DNA of 53,475 bases, taken from Terriglobia bacterium. GTDB taxonomy: Bacteria; Acidobacteriota; Terriglobia; Bryobacterales; Bryobacteraceae. This document shows positions 8,634 to 14,538 of the stretch, one piece after another. The notes under the pieces are model-generated. The model saw only the letters and a program-made list of their open reading frames with translations. It was not told the DNA's origin and made no database searches. The DNA lies in contig JAIQEX010000031.1 in assembly GCA_020073615.1 (NCBI GenBank), positions 1 to 53,475 of the forward strand, given 5' to 3'. Position 1 is the first letter of the stretch. Every line of letters starts with the position of its first letter. The position numbers and the translations under genes were made by a program.

Positions 8634-9263
8634 TTAGGCCTCGATCAGGCCCTGGCGGATGGCGTAGCGCACCAACCCGGCGGTTTCGTGGATGGCCAGC
8701 TTTTCCATAATGCGCGCGCGATGCGACTCGCCGGTGCGCACGCTGACGCCGAGCAACTGGGCGACTTCCTTGGTGGTCTTCCCCTCGGCGATCAGTTGCA
8801 GCACCTGCCGCTCCCGCAGCGTGAGCGTATCTTCTTCGGCTTTGTTCTTGTTCTGCATCTCGCGAATCACCGCTCCCGAGATGCCGGGGCTCAAATACAC
8901 ATTTCCCAGGATCACCTCGTGGATGGCCTGCATCAGGTCGCTGGCGGCTTTGGATTTCAGAACGTACCCGACGACGCCGGCGCGGAAGGCGCGCAGCACA
9001 TGCTGCTCTTCGGCATGCATGGTCAGCAGGATGGTGGGGGTGCCCGAATCCTTGCGAATCTCCGCCGCCGCGTCAATGCCGTTCATGATCGGCATGGACA
9101 GATCCATGACGACCACCTGCGGCCGGCAATGGCGCACCAGTTGCACCGCCTGGGCGCCGTTTTCCGCCTCTCCCACTACCGTCAGGTTATGTTTCTCGAG
9201 GAGGATCTTCAGGGCCTCCCGCAGCATCGCGTGATCGTCGACCAGAACCACTCGAACGGCCAT
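8634..9263 (-). CDS. NarL/FixJ-family response regulator
   Basis: The 209-residue regulator has an N-terminal receiver (D9-D10 pocket, phospho-acceptor D54 in VVMDLSMP, T81, K103 in VLKSKAA). Its C-terminal LuxR-type HTH at about residues 143-190 begins LTLRERQVLQLIAEGK. The CAT at 9261-9263 was chosen because AGGAGGG lies about 7 bases upstream. A longer version from 9344 would run through that site and a regulatory repeat. Neighbouring NarX-like proteins on the other strand are the obvious partners, but they lack the phospho-donor histidine. Confidence 0.9.
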   Translation of the reverse strand: MAVRVVLVDDHAMLREALKILLEKHNLTVVGEAENGAQAVQLVRHCRPQVVVMDLSMPIMNGIDAAAEIRKDSGTPTILLTMHAEEQHVLRAFRAGVVGYVLKSKAASDLMQAIHEVILGNVYLSPGISGAVIREMQNKNKAEEDTLTLRERQVLQLIAEGKTTKEVAQLLGVSVRTGESHRARIMEKLAIHETAGLVRYAIRQGLIEA

Positions 9264-9344
9264 TTTGGCTCCCTCCTGGAAAGCGGCCACGCCGCCGTCC
9301 CCTCGCGTTTTAAGTAAGTGTAAATTTGCATCGGAGAAGTTCAC

Positions 9345-9410: not shown

Positions 9411-10778
9411 TCAGAACAGGTAAGCCAATGCCAAGTCGTAATGGTTGTTGATGCGGGTTCCGCGGTTGAGATAGACCGTCCGCAACTGGGTCGCTTCCAG
9501 GCCCAGCAGGACATTGGGCGCCAGGTGGAAGTAGGCGTTGCCGCCGTAAAGCAGGTTCTTGCCGATGTTGCCGGGGCTCAACACGCTATTGCTATCATCC
9601 GTCTGCCCGGTAAAGAAATGGAGGTCCAGGCGCTTCAGCGTGTGAATTGTGATCTGGCCCCACCCGCCCCGGCTCTCCACGATACAGACATCTTCAGGAT
9701 CAATCTGATAGCCCTGGCCGGTGCCGGTACCGAGATGCGCCACGTTCTGCCCGGTGTAGAAAGCGCCGCTGAACTCCACTCGCCGCCAGGGGTTAAAGAA
9801 CCAGTCGAGCGAGAACAGGCTGGAGGGAACCGACATACCCTGCGAGTGGGTAGTGCTGGTGTGAAATCCGGGGGCGATTTCCAGCCGCCGCTCCTCGTCG
9901 AAGCTGTGAAAGAACTCGAAGCGGCCTTCCAGACCGGGCCGCGACGCCTCCGTGATGTCGTTCGATTGCCCGTAGGGCCCGATTTCATGCGTCTGCACGA
10001 CACCCATCACCGCGCGCAGGCCAGTGGATCGGCTGAAATGAAAATCCTGCTCGGCGCGAATCTGCGGCAGCCATTCATAGAGGTTGCCGGCGCCGGTGAG
10101 GGGCGAAATGCCCACTTGTGCCAGCGAGCTGGGCTCGCGTCCATTGAAGATCGGCTTGTCGATGCCCACGGTCACGCTGCGGCTCTGCCAATCGATTCCC
10201 ACCGAGCCGGTCCGCAGGCGCATCTCAGGGTAGGTGGTGCCCGGAAAAAAGTCCATGTAAATGGAGCCATGAACCCGGCCTCCCCAGACGGTGGCCGGAC
10301 CGTGGAACTCCAGGCCAACGATGGTCTGGCGCAAAGTCGCGCCCGAACTCCGCACGCCCGGCTCGGACGCCAGAATGGGGTAATTCACTCCTCCGCTCTG
10401 CTTGGAGTTCAGAAACGCGTTAAACAGCGCCATCCCCGTAATGCGGATCGGGAAACGCTGCGAAGCTTCCACTTTCGTTTGCGCCTGTTCGTCAATGCGC
10501 TGCTGCTGAATATCCAGCTTCTCGTCGACTGTGGCTCCCGGTGCGGGGGTGGCCGCTGCCGAAGGCTGGACGCCCGCCGAATCGCCGGCGCCTTTAGTCA
10601 ACCGGGCAGCGGCCAAGTCGGCGCGCAGCGCCCGGACCTCTTCGGAAAGGGTGCGGTTCTCCTGTTCGAGCCGGTCCAGGCGTTGCAGGATATTGGCCAG
10701 CTCCGGCGCGGTTTGCGCGCCTAGAAAAAGTGGAAACAGTAGTGGCGCCAGCCAGATCAGCGGTCGGGAGCGTCCCAT
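9411..10778 (-). CDS. Outer-membrane beta-barrel (porin-like) protein
   Basis: The 455-residue protein has a signal peptide at the chosen start (MGRSRPLIWLAPLLFPLFLGAQ). A coiled-coil heptad region follows at about residues 30-55 (LANILQRLDRLEQENRTLSE). A Pro/Ala linker leads into a long run of alternating amphipathic strands ending in ALAYLF with a terminal Phe, typical of outer-membrane barrels. The arrangement resembles DcaP/porin-like proteins of Acidobacteria. Substrate unknown. The ATG at 10778 is preceded by GGAGGAA; the longer open frame to 10997 is ignored because it lacks a signal peptide at its start. Confidence 0.75.
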   Translation of the reverse strand: MGRSRPLIWLAPLLFPLFLGAQTAPELANILQRLDRLEQENRTLSEEVRALRADLAAARLTKGAGDSAGVQPSAAATPAPGATVDEKLDIQQQRIDEQAQTKVEASQRFPIRITGMALFNAFLNSKQSGGVNYPILASEPGVRSSGATLRQTIVGLEFHGPATVWGGRVHGSIYMDFFPGTTYPEMRLRTGSVGIDWQSRSVTVGIDKPIFNGREPSSLAQVGISPLTGAGNLYEWLPQIRAEQDFHFSRSTGLRAVMGVVQTHEIGPYGQSNDITEASRPGLEGRFEFFHSFDEERRLEIAPGFHTSTTHSQGMSVPSSLFSLDWFFNPWRRVEFSGAFYTGQNVAHLGTGTGQGYQIDPEDVCIVESRGGWGQITIHTLKRLDLHFFTGQTDDSNSVLSPGNIGKNLLYGGNAYFHLAPNVLLGLEATQLRTVYLNRGTRINNHYDLALAYLF

Positions 10779-10869
10779 AGAGAAGTTCCTCCAATCCCGC
10801 GGCGACAGCGTTCCAGCGCGATCCCCACGGCGTGTAAATGAATTGTATGGTTTTTGTAAACAAACCTGC

Positions 10870-10889
10870 ATCCGTAAAGTTGGGGATTC
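10870..10889 (-). promoter_or_regulatory. Repeat element, copy b (upstream of porin gene)
   Basis: ATCCGTAAAGTTG is followed by GATTC with the same 15-base offset as copy a. It lies about 92 bases upstream of the porin start at 10778, which is transcribed leftwards. An operator shared with copies a, c and d is inferred. Confidence 0.5.
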
Positions 10890-10935
10890 TCGCTCCGTAG
10901 AAGGTGGGAGATGGCCGTTTGTGCGGCTGCGGTTC

Positions 10936-10972
10936 ATCCGCAATATCCGTAATATTCCCCCCGGCGATTCCG
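10936..10972 (+). promoter_or_regulatory. Repeat element, copy c (upstream of first NarX-like gene)
   Basis: ATCCGCAAT and ATCCGTAAT stand in tandem at 10936-10953. TATTCC and then GATTCCG follow, with a 21-base offset from the second ATCCGTA. It lies about 65 bases before the ATG at 11037. The 21-base offset is shared with copy d, and both precede plus-strand genes. Confidence 0.5.
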
Positions 10973-11036
10973 AACTTACCCTCTTCTGGCTTCCCATGGT
11001 GGAGGATTACAGTTGTAAAGGCGGAACGGACGTTCA

Positions 11037-11753
11037 ATGGCTAAGGACAAGACCCGGGCCCCCAGACGCGTGCGCAGGAGTTGTGCGACACGGCGGCCAT
11101 CGAGTGGCGGGCCGGCGGCACCCGAGCATCCCTTCGTTTTGCTGCAGCAACTGAATAAGGCGCTCGAAAAGGACAAGAAGCCGTTCGCCAAGGTGGACGA
11201 CGACTACGGCGCGCAACTGTTGGCGGTAGCTCATCTCCATCTTTCCCTGGCGGCCCAGGACCTGCCGGCCGGATGCGGCCGATGTTTCGCGGAAATGAAT
11301 CGGACCCTGGGGCAAATCCAGGTCCAATTGCCGGCCGTCTCTTACTACGATCCCGATTTCCTTTCGGCCCTCAAAGGTGTGGCTACCGCCGCGCTGCAAG
11401 GGACCAACCTCCCGGTCACCGTCGAGGGCTCGGTGGGGACCCTGCCGCGAGCGTTTCAGGCCTCCATCCTCCGCGTCGCCGAGGAGATCCTGAGGAATGT
11501 AGTCAAACACGCCCACGCCGGCGCTGTGACTGTGCAGGTGTGCGAAGCCGGTGAATTCCGGTGTTCCATTCGGGATGACGGTGTGGGCTTCGAGCCGGAC
11601 GATGTGTGGAGCGGAGAATCCGGTCATGGCGTAGGTCTGCTCGGGATCCGCGAACGCGTGCGGCTCCTGGGGGGCGTACTTTCGGTCTGCTCCGCCCCCG
11701 GCAAGGGAACCGAGGTGGTCATTCAGTTGCCCCAGGTGGACCACGGCTCCTGA
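11037..11753 (+). CDS. NarX-like kinase paralogue lacking the phospho-acceptor His
   Basis: The 238-residue soluble protein has a dimerisation helix resembling HisKA_3 (residues about 47-72) and a HATPase_c domain. The N box is EEILRNVVKHAHA, the G1 box DDGVGF, the G2 box GHGVGLLGIRERV, and GKGTEV is near the end. Where NarX-type kinases read L-H-D-x-x-G-x-Q, this one reads V-D54-D-D-Y-G-A-Q, so the phospho-acceptor His appears replaced by Asp. A CxxC (C80, C83) sits where the dimerisation hairpin turns. It may be a phosphatase, a redox sensor or an allosteric partner of its paralogue rather than a kinase. No signal peptide or membrane segment is visible. Confidence 0.75.
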   Translation: MAKDKTRAPRRVRRSCATRRPSSGGPAAPEHPFVLLQQLNKALEKDKKPFAKVDDDYGAQLLAVAHLHLSLAAQDLPAGCGRCFAEMNRTLGQIQVQLPAVSYYDPDFLSALKGVATAALQGTNLPVTVEGSVGTLPRAFQASILRVAEEILRNVVKHAHAGAVTVQVCEAGEFRCSIRDDGVGFEPDDVWSGESGHGVGLLGIRERVRLLGGVLSVCSAPGKGTEVVIQLPQVDHGS

Positions 11754-11758
11754 CGCGT

Positions 11759-11786
11759 ATCCGTAGTATTCGGTCTGCAGATTCCG
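11759..11786 (+). promoter_or_regulatory. Repeat element, copy d (upstream of second NarX-like gene)
   Basis: ATCCGTAGTATTC is followed by GATTCCG at the same 21-base offset as copy c. It begins just after the stop of the first NarX-like gene and lies about 76 bases before the ATG at 11862. An operator is inferred. Confidence 0.5.
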
Positions 11787-11861
11787 GGCTTTGCACGATT
11801 GGGTTTCCGCCGCGCTGGGGTTACACTTGTTGCAGAGACGGAGGGAACCCGTCGCTCGATC

Positions 11862-12845
11862 ATGCCCGCTCAGCCGTCGGAAACACTCCGCGAGTATCGC
11901 CACACACTCTACGATTACGCCGTGGGAGGCGGGGAGCCGGCATTGCGCCGGGCCCTGGTGTTGCAGCGCCAGGCATCGGCCGAGGGCTGCAATGCGCTCG
12001 AAATGCTGGAAGCTCACCATGCCACGGTGCTGCCGATCCTGATGCCCGCATCCTCGCCGGAAAAGGCCGTCTCGCGCGAGAAATCGGTGCGCCTCTTCTG
12101 CACCAGTTGTCCCAGTTGGGACCCTCAACTCTCCCGGGATTTCGTCGATCGCGACGCGGTGGCGGACTGTCTCCAGCGGCGCGCTCCGGCATCGGCCGAC
12201 CAGCCGGCGCCGCCCGTCGAGCCTTTGATCGTGCTGCGCCATCTGAACCAGGTACTGGGCGAGGAGAAGCGGCCGTTCGCCAGGATCGTCGACAACGAGG
12301 CCGCGCAATTATTGGCGGTGGCCAATCTCCGCCTGTCCATGGCGGCCAGCGATCTGCCGCCGGGCTGCAGCCATTGTTTCATCGAGATCAAGAAGTTCCT
12401 GGAGCAGATCCAGGTGCAACTGCCGCCCGCCATGCTGTACGATCCCGATTTCCTCCCGGCCCTCAAGACGGTGGCTGAGAGCACTCTGCAGGGGACGGGC
12501 ATTGCGGTCACCGTGGAGGGTTCCGCGGGCGCGACGCTGCCGCAAGAAATTCAGGCGGCGATTCTCCGCATTGCCGAAGAAGCCTTGACCAACGTTGTCC
12601 GGCACGCCTATGCGGGGACGGTAAAGGTGCGGGGGGAGGTGCGAGACAACCGCGAATTCTATTGTTCGATCGCCGACGACGGAGTGGGTTTCGCGCCCGC
12701 CGATGTCTTGTCGGGCAAAGCCGGACACGGAGTTGGCCTGCTGGGCATGGAGCGGCGCGTGCAGCTTCTGGGCGGCAAGTTGGCAGTCACTTCGGGCCGC
12801 GGTAAGGGCACGGAGATTGTCGTCCGGCTGCCTTTGGAGCGTTGA
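11862..12845 (+). CDS. RsbU-N / NarX-like kinase paralogue lacking the phospho-acceptor His
   Basis: The 327-residue protein has an N-terminal segment (about residues 5-60, YRHTLYDYAVGGGEPALRRA) like the RsbU N-terminal domain that binds the stressosome-type switch protein RsbT. A HisKA_3-like helix and HATPase_c domain (EEALTNVVRHAYA, DDGVGF, GHGVGLLGMERRV, GKGTEI) follow. The position of the phospho-acceptor His is V143 in I-V-D-N-E-A-A-Q. Like its upstream paralogue it has a CxxC (C169, C172) after the helix. The start at 11862 places the RsbU-like domain at the N terminus; the ribosome site is weak. It is probably a signalling partner of the NarL-type regulator, by a mechanism that does not use the normal His. 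Confidence 0.75.
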   Translation: MPAQPSETLREYRHTLYDYAVGGGEPALRRALVLQRQASAEGCNALEMLEAHHATVLPILMPASSPEKAVSREKSVRLFCTSCPSWDPQLSRDFVDRDAVADCLQRRAPASADQPAPPVEPLIVLRHLNQVLGEEKRPFARIVDNEAAQLLAVANLRLSMAASDLPPGCSHCFIEIKKFLEQIQVQLPPAMLYDPDFLPALKTVAESTLQGTGIAVTVEGSAGATLPQEIQAAILRIAEEALTNVVRHAYAGTVKVRGEVRDNREFYCSIADDGVGFAPADVLSGKAGHGVGLLGMERRVQLLGGKLAVTSGRGKGTEIVVRLPLER

Positions 12846-12895: not shown

Positions 12896-13789
12896 ATGGT
12901 AACGGCCGGCCGGCGGAAGTCGATCGCCTTGTTCATCGCGCTCGGCGTCGGCCTCATTTCGGTCATTCTCCTGCTCTATATCGGTTGGGTCCTGCTCAAC
13001 TGGCGTCACGGCCCCCTTCTGTTTCTCGGCGTCCTGCTGCTGGCCATGATCATCAGCGGCGTGGTGCTGAACACCATTTTCCTGGTCCGGGAGATCCGCC
13101 GCAACGAACAGCACGATGCCTTCATCAATGCCGTCACGCACGAGCTGAAAACCCCCGTCGCCAGCCTCCGCCTGTATCTCGAAACCCTGCAAACACGGGA
13201 GCTCGACGAGACCCGGCGCAAGGACTTTTACCGCATCATGCTGGAGGACAGCGACCGCCTGCTGGCCGCCATCGAGCAGATTCTGCGCACCGGGCGCATG
13301 GGCGCGGCCAGCCGCAAGCTCAACCTTTCGCGCATCGACGTGAGCCCCCTGGTGGAGGAATGCCTGACACGCGTGCGGGCGCTGCACGCCATACCGCCCG
13401 AATCACTGGCCTACCATCCGGGCCCGGCGATGGCGGTTCTGGGGGATGCGGACGAAGTGCGGGCCGCGGTTTCGAACCTCATCGACAATGCGGTGAAGTA
13501 TTCTGGAAGAAGCGTCAAGGTGATCGTGGAAACCGCCAAGGTGGACGGGAAATATGTCTCGGTGCGCGTGCGGGATGAAGGAGCGGGCATTCCCAAAGGA
13601 GAGTTGAAGCGGGTGTTCCGGCGTTTTCACCGCGTGCCCGGGCCGCTGGCTTCCCGGGTGAAGGGAACCGGTCTGGGGCTGTACATCGTGCGTTCCGTGG
13701 CCAAGCGCCACGGAGGCCGCGCCTGGGCCGAAAGCGAGGGGCCGGGACGCGGCAGCACCTTCGTTCTGCAACTGCCGATTTCCCCATGA
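12896..13789 (+). CDS. Membrane sensor histidine kinase (HisKA)
   Basis: The 297-residue kinase has two transmembrane helices (about residues 10-33 and 41-63) with almost no periplasmic loop. A HisKA dimerisation domain with H82 in THELKTP and a HATPase_c domain follow, with N box NLIDNAVKYSG, DEGAGIPKGE, GTGLGLYIVRS and GRGSTF. The lack of an extracellular sensor suggests sensing within the membrane or through partners. GAAGG lies shortly before the ATG. The last four bases overlap the next gene, so kinase and regulator form one unit. Confidence 0.92.
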   Translation: MVTAGRRKSIALFIALGVGLISVILLLYIGWVLLNWRHGPLLFLGVLLLAMIISGVVLNTIFLVREIRRNEQHDAFINAVTHELKTPVASLRLYLETLQTRELDETRRKDFYRIMLEDSDRLLAAIEQILRTGRMGAASRKLNLSRIDVSPLVEECLTRVRALHAIPPESLAYHPGPAMAVLGDADEVRAAVSNLIDNAVKYSGRSVKVIVETAKVDGKYVSVRVRDEGAGIPKGELKRVFRRFHRVPGPLASRVKGTGLGLYIVRSVAKRHGGRAWAESEGPGRGSTFVLQLPISP

Positions 13790-14538
13790 GCCGGATACTG
13801 ATCGTGGAAGACGAGGAGCACCTGGCCAACGGGCTGCGGTTCAATCTGGAGGCGGAGGGCTACCAGGTGGAATTAGTGGACACCGGGGAGTCGGCGCTCG
13901 ACCGGCTTCGCGTGGATGCGCCGGCCTTCGACCTGGTGATCCTGGACGTCATGCTGCCCGGCAAGGACGGCTTCACTGTAATGTCGGAGCTGCGCCAGGC
14001 CGGCCAGTTCATTCCCACGCTGATGCTCACTGCGCGCGGCCATCCCGACGATGTGCTGCAAGGCTTCGCCGCGGGCGCCGACGATTACCTCGCCAAGCCC
14101 TTCGAGTTGGCCATCCTGATCGCGCGCATCGGCGGCCTGCTGCGCCGCCGCGAATGGCTGCGCGCCTCGCTCGATCGCTCCGCCACGCCGGAGCCGGATG
14201 CCGTGTTCACCTTCGGCGACAAATCGGTGCATTTCGATCTTCTCGAGCTGCGCGTCCGCAAGCAAGTCTTTCCGCTGACGTTGATGGAAGCCAATGTCCT
14301 GCGCTATCTGATCCAGCACGAAGACCGGCCGGTCTCCCGCAAGGCCATGCTCGAGGAAGTCTGGGGGCTGCACGAAGACACCGACACCCGCGCCATCGAC
14401 AATTTCATGGTGCGCCTGCGCCGCTACATCGAGCAGGACCCCACGCACCCCCGCCACCTGATCACCGTGCGCGGCGTGGGCTACCGCTTCGTTGCGTCGC
14501 CGGACCGATCGGCGGCGGGCCCGGAGGGTGCCTCGTAA
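13786..14538 (+). CDS. OmpR/PhoB-family response regulator
   Basis: The 250-residue regulator has a receiver domain (E8-D9-E10 pocket, phospho-acceptor D54 in VILDVMLPGKDG, T82, K104 in AKPFE). Its C-terminal winged-helix DNA-binding domain is at about residues 140-238 (LTLMEANVLRYLIQ, DNFMVRLRRYIE, VRGVGYRF). Its ATG overlaps the stop of the kinase (ATGA). Targets cannot be read from the sequence; the decayed genes downstream are unlikely to be its targets. Confidence 0.93.
   Translation: MSRILIVEDEEHLANGLRFNLEAEGYQVELVDTGESALDRLRVDAPAFDLVILDVMLPGKDGFTVMSELRQAGQFIPTLMLTARGHPDDVLQGFAAGADDYLAKPFELAILIARIGGLLRRREWLRASLDRSATPEPDAVFTFGDKSVHFDLLELRVRKQVFPLTLMEANVLRYLIQHEDRPVSRKAMLEEVWGLHEDTDTRAIDNFMVRLRRYIEQDPTHPRHLITVRGVGYRFVASPDRSAAGPEGAS

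Follow-up and report, generated by a model that had tools for sequence, protein, structure and literature searches.

A tandem pair of candidate pseudo-histidine kinases of HisKA_3 descent, with a NarL-type regulator as putative ancestral partner, in a Terriglobia bacterium

The stretch of DNA analysed here, referred to as the window, comprises 53,475 nucleotides of contig JAIQEX010000031.1 (assembly GCA_020073615.1, Terriglobia bacterium, Bryobacteraceae) and carries two adjacent paralogous genes, P1 and P2. Their products are built like HisKA_3-type histidine kinases, with a dimerisation and histidine phosphotransfer (DHp) hairpin and a catalytic and ATP-binding (CA) part, and both have lost the histidine on which such enzymes are phosphorylated. 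They were compared with relatives from the window's own genome (G000; 252 contigs, 6.96 Mb), from a congener with an orthologous locus (G001) and from wider samples of the class and phylum. The genes on which the argument turns are the following:

11037 to 11753, plus strand: P1, a 238-residue putative pseudo-histidine kinase with a short tail, a degenerate HisKA_3-type DHp and a HATPase_c domain (open reading frame from ATG, Pfam, alignment).
11862 to 12845, plus strand: P2, a 327-residue putative pseudo-histidine kinase with an RsbU_N-like N-terminus (open reading frame from ATG, Pfam, alignment, profile).
8634 to 9344, minus strand: NarL-type response regulator with intact receiver residues, the presumed ancestral partner (Pfam, neighbourhoods, alignment).

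In both MAFFT and profile alignments with relatives, the acceptor column holds Asp in all four proteins of the family, i.e., D55 in P1, D144 in P2 and the equivalent residue in each G001 orthologue. This column was anchored on the invariant Gln of the HDxxxQ motif and, as the region between this Gln and a CxxC motif further along the hairpin is ungapped, its place is fixed at D55 and D144. A previous, sequence-only reading of the window had reported the acceptor His missing from both proteins, which the alignment with HisKA_3 relatives confirmed; the residues it had named, D54 and V143, each lie one position early and are ruled out by the ungapped anchor, the true change being from His to Asp in both cases. 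The same reading had pointed to H66 of P1 as the residue that could take the acceptor's place. This His stands 11 positions beyond the acceptor column. A His in this position accompanies the true acceptor in 27 of 28 canonical relatives, P2 has an Asn there, and H66 was rejected as an alternative. Neither P1 nor P2 matches HisKA_3 (PF07730) at E<=1, and the PF07730 search of their own genome omits both; this absence is weak evidence, since a His-bearing CxxC kinase encoded on contig C59 of the same genome is missed as well.

11199 to 11201, plus strand: acceptor column of P1, Asp55 in place of His (alignments).
12291 to 12293, plus strand: acceptor column of P2, Asp144 in place of His (alignments).
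11202 to 11216, plus strand: D56xxxQ60 of P1, the HisKA_3 phosphatase motif, retained (alignment).
12294 to 12308, plus strand: N145xxxQ149 of P2, in which the acid of DxxxQ is gone (alignment).
11274 to 11285, plus strand: CxxC of P1 (C80-C83) at the start of DHp helix 2 (alignment, AlphaFold).
12366 to 12377, plus strand: CxxC of P2 (C169-C172), just ahead of DHp helix 2 in the model (alignment, AlphaFold).

A second shared loss, which had escaped the first reading, can be recognized in the alignment. Indeed, P1, P2 and both orthologues (4/4) lack seven residues towards the end of DHp helix 2, at a site that is ungapped in all 28 canonical rows and that precedes a motif reading RPxxLDDLGL in canonical kinases. 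MAFFT places the gaps of P1 and P2 in identical columns and the profile alignment shifts that of P1 a few columns later; the exact place of the deletion is uncertain by a few residues.

11331 to 11336, plus strand: deletion junction of P1 in DHp helix 2, its place uncertain by a few residues (alignment).
12423 to 12434, plus strand: region of the seven-residue deletion of P2 in DHp helix 2 (alignment).

AlphaFold models, which cover P1 and P2 only, are compatible with an altered acceptor layer and helix 2. In these models helix 1 of the hairpin begins at residue 57 of P1 and 146 of P2, just beyond the acceptor, and helix 2 extends over residues 81-103 and 171-186, respectively; the predicted local distance difference test score (pLDDT) is below 50 at residues 47-55 of P1 and 87-144 of P2, and with predicted template modelling scores of 0.61 (P1) and 0.48 (P2) the domain arrangement is unreliable. 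All four proteins lack the full-length two-helix DHp hairpin of HisKA_3. Because the acceptor, the full hairpin and the Pfam score are all wanting, P1 and P2 are best described, from their sequences, as descendants of HisKA_3 kinases, yet not classed as HisKA_3 histidine kinases.

The ATP-binding half tells of a different fate. Both proteins are well over the Pfam cut-off for HATPase_c (61.5 bits for P1 and 60.1 for P2, the cut-off being 26.4) and their N, G1 and G2 boxes are read as intact in the alignment, in agreement with the complete ATP-binding boxes reported earlier. The CA part of the P2 model resembles VraS with ADP (Z 20.0, root-mean-square deviation 2.0, 133 residues), and in a Foldseek search with the P1 model the top hit was EL346, VraS ranking third and DesK H188V fifth. 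From the intact boxes we infer that P1 and P2 still bind ATP.

Upstream of its DHp, P2 carries what is probably a diverged RsbU_N domain:

11886 to 12044, plus strand: RsbU_N-like domain of P2, residues 9-61 (profile search).

Against a profile of seven canonical N-termini this part of P2 scores 36.3 bits, versus 6.6 for the best of 200 shuffles, which upholds the RsbU-like domain first noted there, though Pfam RsbU_N (PF08673) is unreported in P2 at E<=1; two canonical relatives match PF08673 at 3e-11 and 1e-10. The canonical relatives used throughout (loci L067, L068 and L103-L130, the latter being the best 28 matches of a search of the class with a four-row profile) are RsbU_N-HisKA_3-HATPase kinases of other families, most of which share the architecture of P2, at 30-36% identity to it (20 aligned). 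A few have PAS inserts, and the protein of L067/L128 seems to be without its N-terminal half in its frame. They differ from P1 and P2 in having the acceptor His and a full helix 2 in 28 of 28 distinct rows and the hairpin CxxC in none. With respect to named models, UhpB (63 bits for P1, 69.1 for P2) and MctS (70.9 for P2) give the best scores, and P1 and P2, which have no acceptor, remain far under the curated cut-offs (408 and 700, and 578 for NarX). By the NCBIfam scores they fail as nitrate sensors, reaching 33.8 and 38.4 bits for NarX and 47.4 and 51.4 bits, versus 553, for NarQ.

The His-less state appears to be rare among relatives. From 155 open reading frames matching the profile in the collected loci, 120 rows were left once repeats were dropped and 108 once 12 without DHp coverage were set aside, a non-random set selected for resemblance to P1 and P2. 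The acceptor His is present in 101 of these 108 rows and in all 80 rows outside G000 and G001; the seven His-less rows are P1, P2, their two orthologues, one kinase with a His-to-Tyr change, and a kinase fused to a transporter, together with its orthologue. Domains over the PF07730 cut-off number 21 in G000 and 19 in G001, with the acceptor His in 19 and 18 of the segments read. The Tyr kinase (L098, 3072-4184, contig C149 of G000) is an RsbU_N-HisKA_3 protein reading RELYDESMQ at the acceptor, precedes two NarL-type regulators that share 82% identity with that of the window, and had no close orthologue that we could find in G001. The fused protein (L097, 4486-7143, contig C107 of G000; orthologue on contig C146 of G001) has 885 residues, combines an NRAMP-like transporter, a name given by eye, with PAS-like and HisKA_3-type parts and a HATPase, and is flanked on each side by a small His-bearing kinase. 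Its acceptor is Glu (REVENIGQ); the Val given by the profile is an artefact, as seen by eye against cousins reading REVHDIAQ.

Matches at the level of the pair were obtained in 2 of 101 relatives and in 2 of 399 genomes of the class, where the weakest of the four reached 1.3e-135 and the best outside the genus 7.3e-47. Among 396 genomes of the phylum, a draw that did not contain G001, they were confined to the window's own genome, and a kinase of genome G570 (3.6e-43) keeps its His. All of these are samples, and in those of the class and phylum the five best candidates per genome were scored. A wider contig scan returned distant kinases only, in a set from which near genomes may be missing.

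Despite their losses, P1 and P2 seem to be maintained. Nei-Gojobori ratios of nonsynonymous to synonymous substitution (dN/dS) between G000 and G001 are 0.26 for P1 and 0.33 for P2, alongside 0.24 for the NarL-type regulator, 0.15 for a HisKA kinase gene downstream and 0.30 for a porin-like gene upstream; although these are two-sequence estimates from a single genome pair, they indicate purifying selection. By part, the DHp of P1 (69 codons) is its most conserved region at 0.09, with 0.45 for its CA, and P2 gives 0.17 for its N-terminus, 0.70 for its linker, 0.28 for its DHp and 0.37 for its CA. In a tree of 58 rows built without the acceptor column and the seven columns of the deletion, P1 and P2 group in a single clade (100/100) comprising the orthologous pairs (100/98 and 100/95); of the 55 inner branches, 20 stay open, several rows are long and the sister lineage is left unplaced. 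The simplest history would be a loss of the His and helix segment, followed by duplication and then by the divergence of the two species. The loss is put before the duplication because the Asp, the deletion and the CxxC are common to both paralogues.

Which regulator such proteins might address is suggested by their relatives. A NarL-type regulator, 45-59% identical to that of the window, lies beside the kinase in 27 of the 28 loci L103-L130: L109 shows none, the one of L112 is cut by the contig end, and L122 and L128 repeat proteins already counted. The receiver residues DD, D, T and K are all kept in the window's regulator and in 15 aligned relatives. Because its relatives adjoin canonical kinases in 27 of 28 loci and its own receiver is intact, the regulator looks like the ancestral partner of the P1/P2 kinase family. 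It has also multiplied, with ten matches in each of G000 and G001 at E<=1e-45, including distant ones at 42-47%. Copies 58-84% identical to it lie on contigs C149, C180 and C200 of G000 and on C86, C187, C262, C384 and C502 of G001. Seven stretches with eight such regulators (all of these contigs but C149) gave no kinase of the P1/P2 family in the profile search; the stretches searched are of limited length, a few of them running up to a contig end. The G000 regulators at least 82% identical to the window's are one beside P1/P2 and two beside the Tyr kinase of C149.

The surface on which a regulator would dock can be compared with that of DesK-DesR, for which DHp helix 1 is reported as the main contact; Leu200 lies at its centre and shares its face with Gln193 and Ser196, minor contacts come from helix 2 of the other subunit, and Arg235 makes a salt bridge to the regulator (PMC5231405). 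The positions of Gln193 and Leu200 are Gln and Leu in P1, P2 and their orthologues (4/4), as in 28 and 21 of the 28 canonical rows, respectively, and the position of Ser196 is Ala. Arg235 aligns by HMMER with the Arg of an ELRP motif in a canonical relative, within the altered region, and reads as lost from P1 and P2 in the alignment. The earlier proposal that the pair may act on the nearby NarL-type regulator is strengthened by the neighbourhoods and by the two retained helix-1 residues.

The remaining features of the locus are as follows:

9411 to 10997, minus strand: porin-like gene (named by eye) separating the regulator and P1 (open reading frame listing).
12896 to 13789, plus strand: HisKA histidine kinase, starting 50 bases past P2 (Pfam).
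13786 to 14538, plus strand: OmpR-type response regulator, overlapping the HisKA kinase gene (Pfam).
10945 to 10957, plus strand: 13-mer ATCCGTARTATTC, upstream of P1 (exact-match genome search).
11759 to 11771, plus strand: the other genomic copy of this 13-mer, upstream of P2 (exact-match genome search).

The porin-like gene, for which a Pfam search gave nothing above cut-off, probably starts at about 10779, at the Met of a signal peptide. Gene order, from a hydrolase through the OmpR-type regulator, is identical in G001. The 13-mer occurs as two exact copies in the whole of G000, one per gene, and at the G001 locus it precedes the P1 orthologue only. Immediately ahead of P1 (11005-11018) and P2 (11819-11832) stands GRTTACASTTGTWR, with similar sequence ahead of both G001 orthologues; it is no rarer elsewhere than its control. 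A TTACA-type motif derived from these upstream sites precedes both genes, and similarly so in G001, and gave 9 one-mismatch matches elsewhere, fewer than the 18 of a control. A shared promoter element for P1 and P2 is a lead.

Taken together, these data support the earlier idea of a non-canonical switch: the acceptor and part of the adjacent helix are lost, the ATP boxes kept and dN/dS is well below 1. Our preferred reading, to which we give about even credence, is that P1 and P2 are pseudo-histidine kinases which dock in an ATP-dependent manner on the NarL-type regulator, or on its paralogues, and steer it without phosphorylating it. Their sequences and neighbourhoods support a derivation from a soluble-looking RsbU_N-HisKA_3-HATPase kinase encoded beside a NarL-type regulator. 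The tree and the shared traits suggest that in their common ancestor the acceptor His became Asp and seven residues of the adjacent helix 2 were lost before duplication; P1 is without the RsbU_N part. Neither protein should autophosphorylate, both would still bind ATP, and helix 1 would dock in a nucleotide-dependent manner on the NarL-type regulator, on close paralogues or on both. The regulator would thus be held or, with the help of P1, dephosphorylated, with the input set by small phosphodonors or by other kinases. The two proteins may pair mutually or with the small His-bearing kinases of the genome. Speculatively, the CxxC near the start of helix 2 could tune the bundle via a disulfide or metal.

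Several observations weigh against this reading. The NarL-type regulator lies outside the operon of P1, 1.7 kb away on the opposite strand and behind the porin-like gene; the HisKA kinase, of the ordinary type, and the OmpR-type regulator are the closest partners on the strand of P1 and P2. The level at which helix 2 of the other subunit makes its minor regulator contact in DesK is altered in both proteins. Selection looks weaker on the CA of P1 and on the linker of P2, and the DHp of P2 is not its most conserved part. The pair was found in two genomes, so that its conservation amounts to one divergence. Model confidence is low around the acceptor of P1 and over a long part of P2 up to its acceptor, the phosphatase acid of P2 reads as Asn, and the docking, ATP-binding and phosphatase roles are all predictions.

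Unlikely in our view, P1 and P2 could act as phosphatases only, natural equivalents of DesK H188V that remove phosphate from the NarL-type regulator and are unable to charge it. DesK H188V is reported to retain normal phosphatase activity, Gln193 positioning the water and Asp189 binding the regulator (PMC5231405), and the phosphatase activity of NarX is described as requiring DxxxQ (PMC3510030). This motif is retained in P1 (D56, Q60) in both G000 and G001. However, P2 has NxxxQ instead, both models show little order around the motif and part of the neighbouring helix 2 is deleted; P1 is possibly a phosphatase, P2 less likely so.

Unlikely too is a role as heterodimer modulators, in which P1 and P2 would pair mutually or with small His-bearing paralogues (contigs C59 and C107), lending or withholding their CA as subunits and not as regulator binders. 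The intact ATP boxes, the DHp as the most constrained part of P1 and the presence of four small His-bearing paralogues in G000 speak for it, and a dead ChrS is reported to raise output via HrrS, native ChrS and HrrS forming heterodimers in two-hybrid assays (PMC9491836). Nevertheless, the deletion should misalign the CA relative to a normal partner, the G001 matches include nothing close to the two C59 paralogues, and truncated ChrS is reported to show no significant heterodimerisation (PMC9491836).

A broader scenario, which we consider doubtful, would have the genus rebuild a NarL-type circuit on natural mimics of phospho-His (Asp in P1 and P2, Glu in the transporter-fused kinase) while multiplying its regulators, P1 and P2 serving as constitutive ATP- and cysteine-gated traps that hold regulators docked as for phosphotransfer and reverse the kinase-to-regulator flow; such residues would be akin to the laboratory phosphomimetic H188E of DesK.

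The CxxC motifs raise the question of a redox or metal switch, a weak idea of the sequence-only reading for which only their conservation speaks. That reading had noted a shared CxxC at the turn of the hairpin, and it is indeed found at residues 80-83 of P1 and 169-172 of P2, as well as in both orthologues (4/4). P2 has a second one, kept by its orthologue and falling in a region that in canonical relatives is a linker of the type FxxExxSPxEM:

12099 to 12110, plus strand: second CxxC of P2 (CTSC, residues 80-83), in the linker (alignment).

That the hairpin CxxCs of a dimer bind Zn or Fe or form disulfides, and thereby alter the bundle, we consider improbable as an explanation of the pair. 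In its favour are the conservation in all four proteins, the location of C80 and C83 of P1 at the start of helix 2, the additional conserved CxxC of P2 and the scarcity of the motif, found in 5 of the 108 rows, the fifth being a paralogue on contig C59 of G000. This paralogue still has its acceptor His (VHSEAGQ), so the motif is not bound to the pseudokinase trait and was rejected as a necessary part of the His loss. Shared descent of its CxxC is also uncertain: its grouping with P1 and P2 has support of 79/23 and that with C107-type kinases 64/77, in a tree from which the acceptor and seven deletion columns were removed and the CxxC columns retained. The C59 kinase itself (L096, 1523-2182; 219 residues) has Ser for the phosphatase acid (HSEAGQ) and adjoins a NarL-type regulator, with multicopper-oxidase-like and SCO1-like genes nearby (named by eye).

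Finally, that P1 and P2 are decaying genes without present function is hardly credible. In favour of it, the acceptor and helix segment are gone, pair-level matches are confined to one genus in the samples searched and dN/dS is relaxed in the CA of P1 and the linker of P2; against it, whole-gene dN/dS is well below 1, both frames are open in both genomes, the four sequences have identical losses and gene order is kept in the congener.

The locus thus offers a tandem His-less pair of HisKA_3 descent in which the regulator is intact, the main docking residues are kept and the acceptor layer is altered. It would provide a compact test of regulator control purely by docking or dephosphorylation by kinase-shaped proteins. 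Moreover, further proteins without the acceptor are encoded in these genomes, with Glu in both G000 and G001 and Tyr in one of them, so that the lineage provides several natural experiments in parallel. In the open-access literature, our search found nothing on HisKA_3 pseudokinases, His-less NarL-linked kinases, a CXXC in the DHp or kinase duplication in Solibacter, which does not imply their absence from print. To our knowledge, few pseudo-histidine kinases have been described, mainly DivL. As expected of such a kinase, the acceptor of P1 and P2 is replaced in genes under selection, here as judged from one genome pair.

Three known systems help to situate them. ChrS of Corynebacterium is likewise a catalytically dead kinase that alters the signalling of a paralogous system, but its CA was truncated by a frameshift during laboratory evolution (PMC9491836), whereas the CA of P1 and P2 is intact and their acceptor loss natural. 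DesK of Bacillus subtilis, with its mutants H188V and H188E, is the nearest solved HisKA_3-type DHp kinase by sequence; it is described as a full kinase and phosphatase and has no deletion (PMC5231405), while the Asp of P1 and P2 is natural. DivL of Caulobacter is alike in that its acceptor His is replaced, by Tyr550, and its other boxes are kept (PMC4211667). It differs by its PAS domains and its Tyr, while P1 and P2 derive from HisKA_3, have Asp and a helix-2 deletion, stand as a tandem pair and bind a regulator by prediction only; no Pfam match to PAS was found in either at E<=1 and, with Asp and not Tyr, they fall outside the DivL family proper. DivL is the precedent for the way in which P1 and P2 would work; like ChrS, it belongs to another family.

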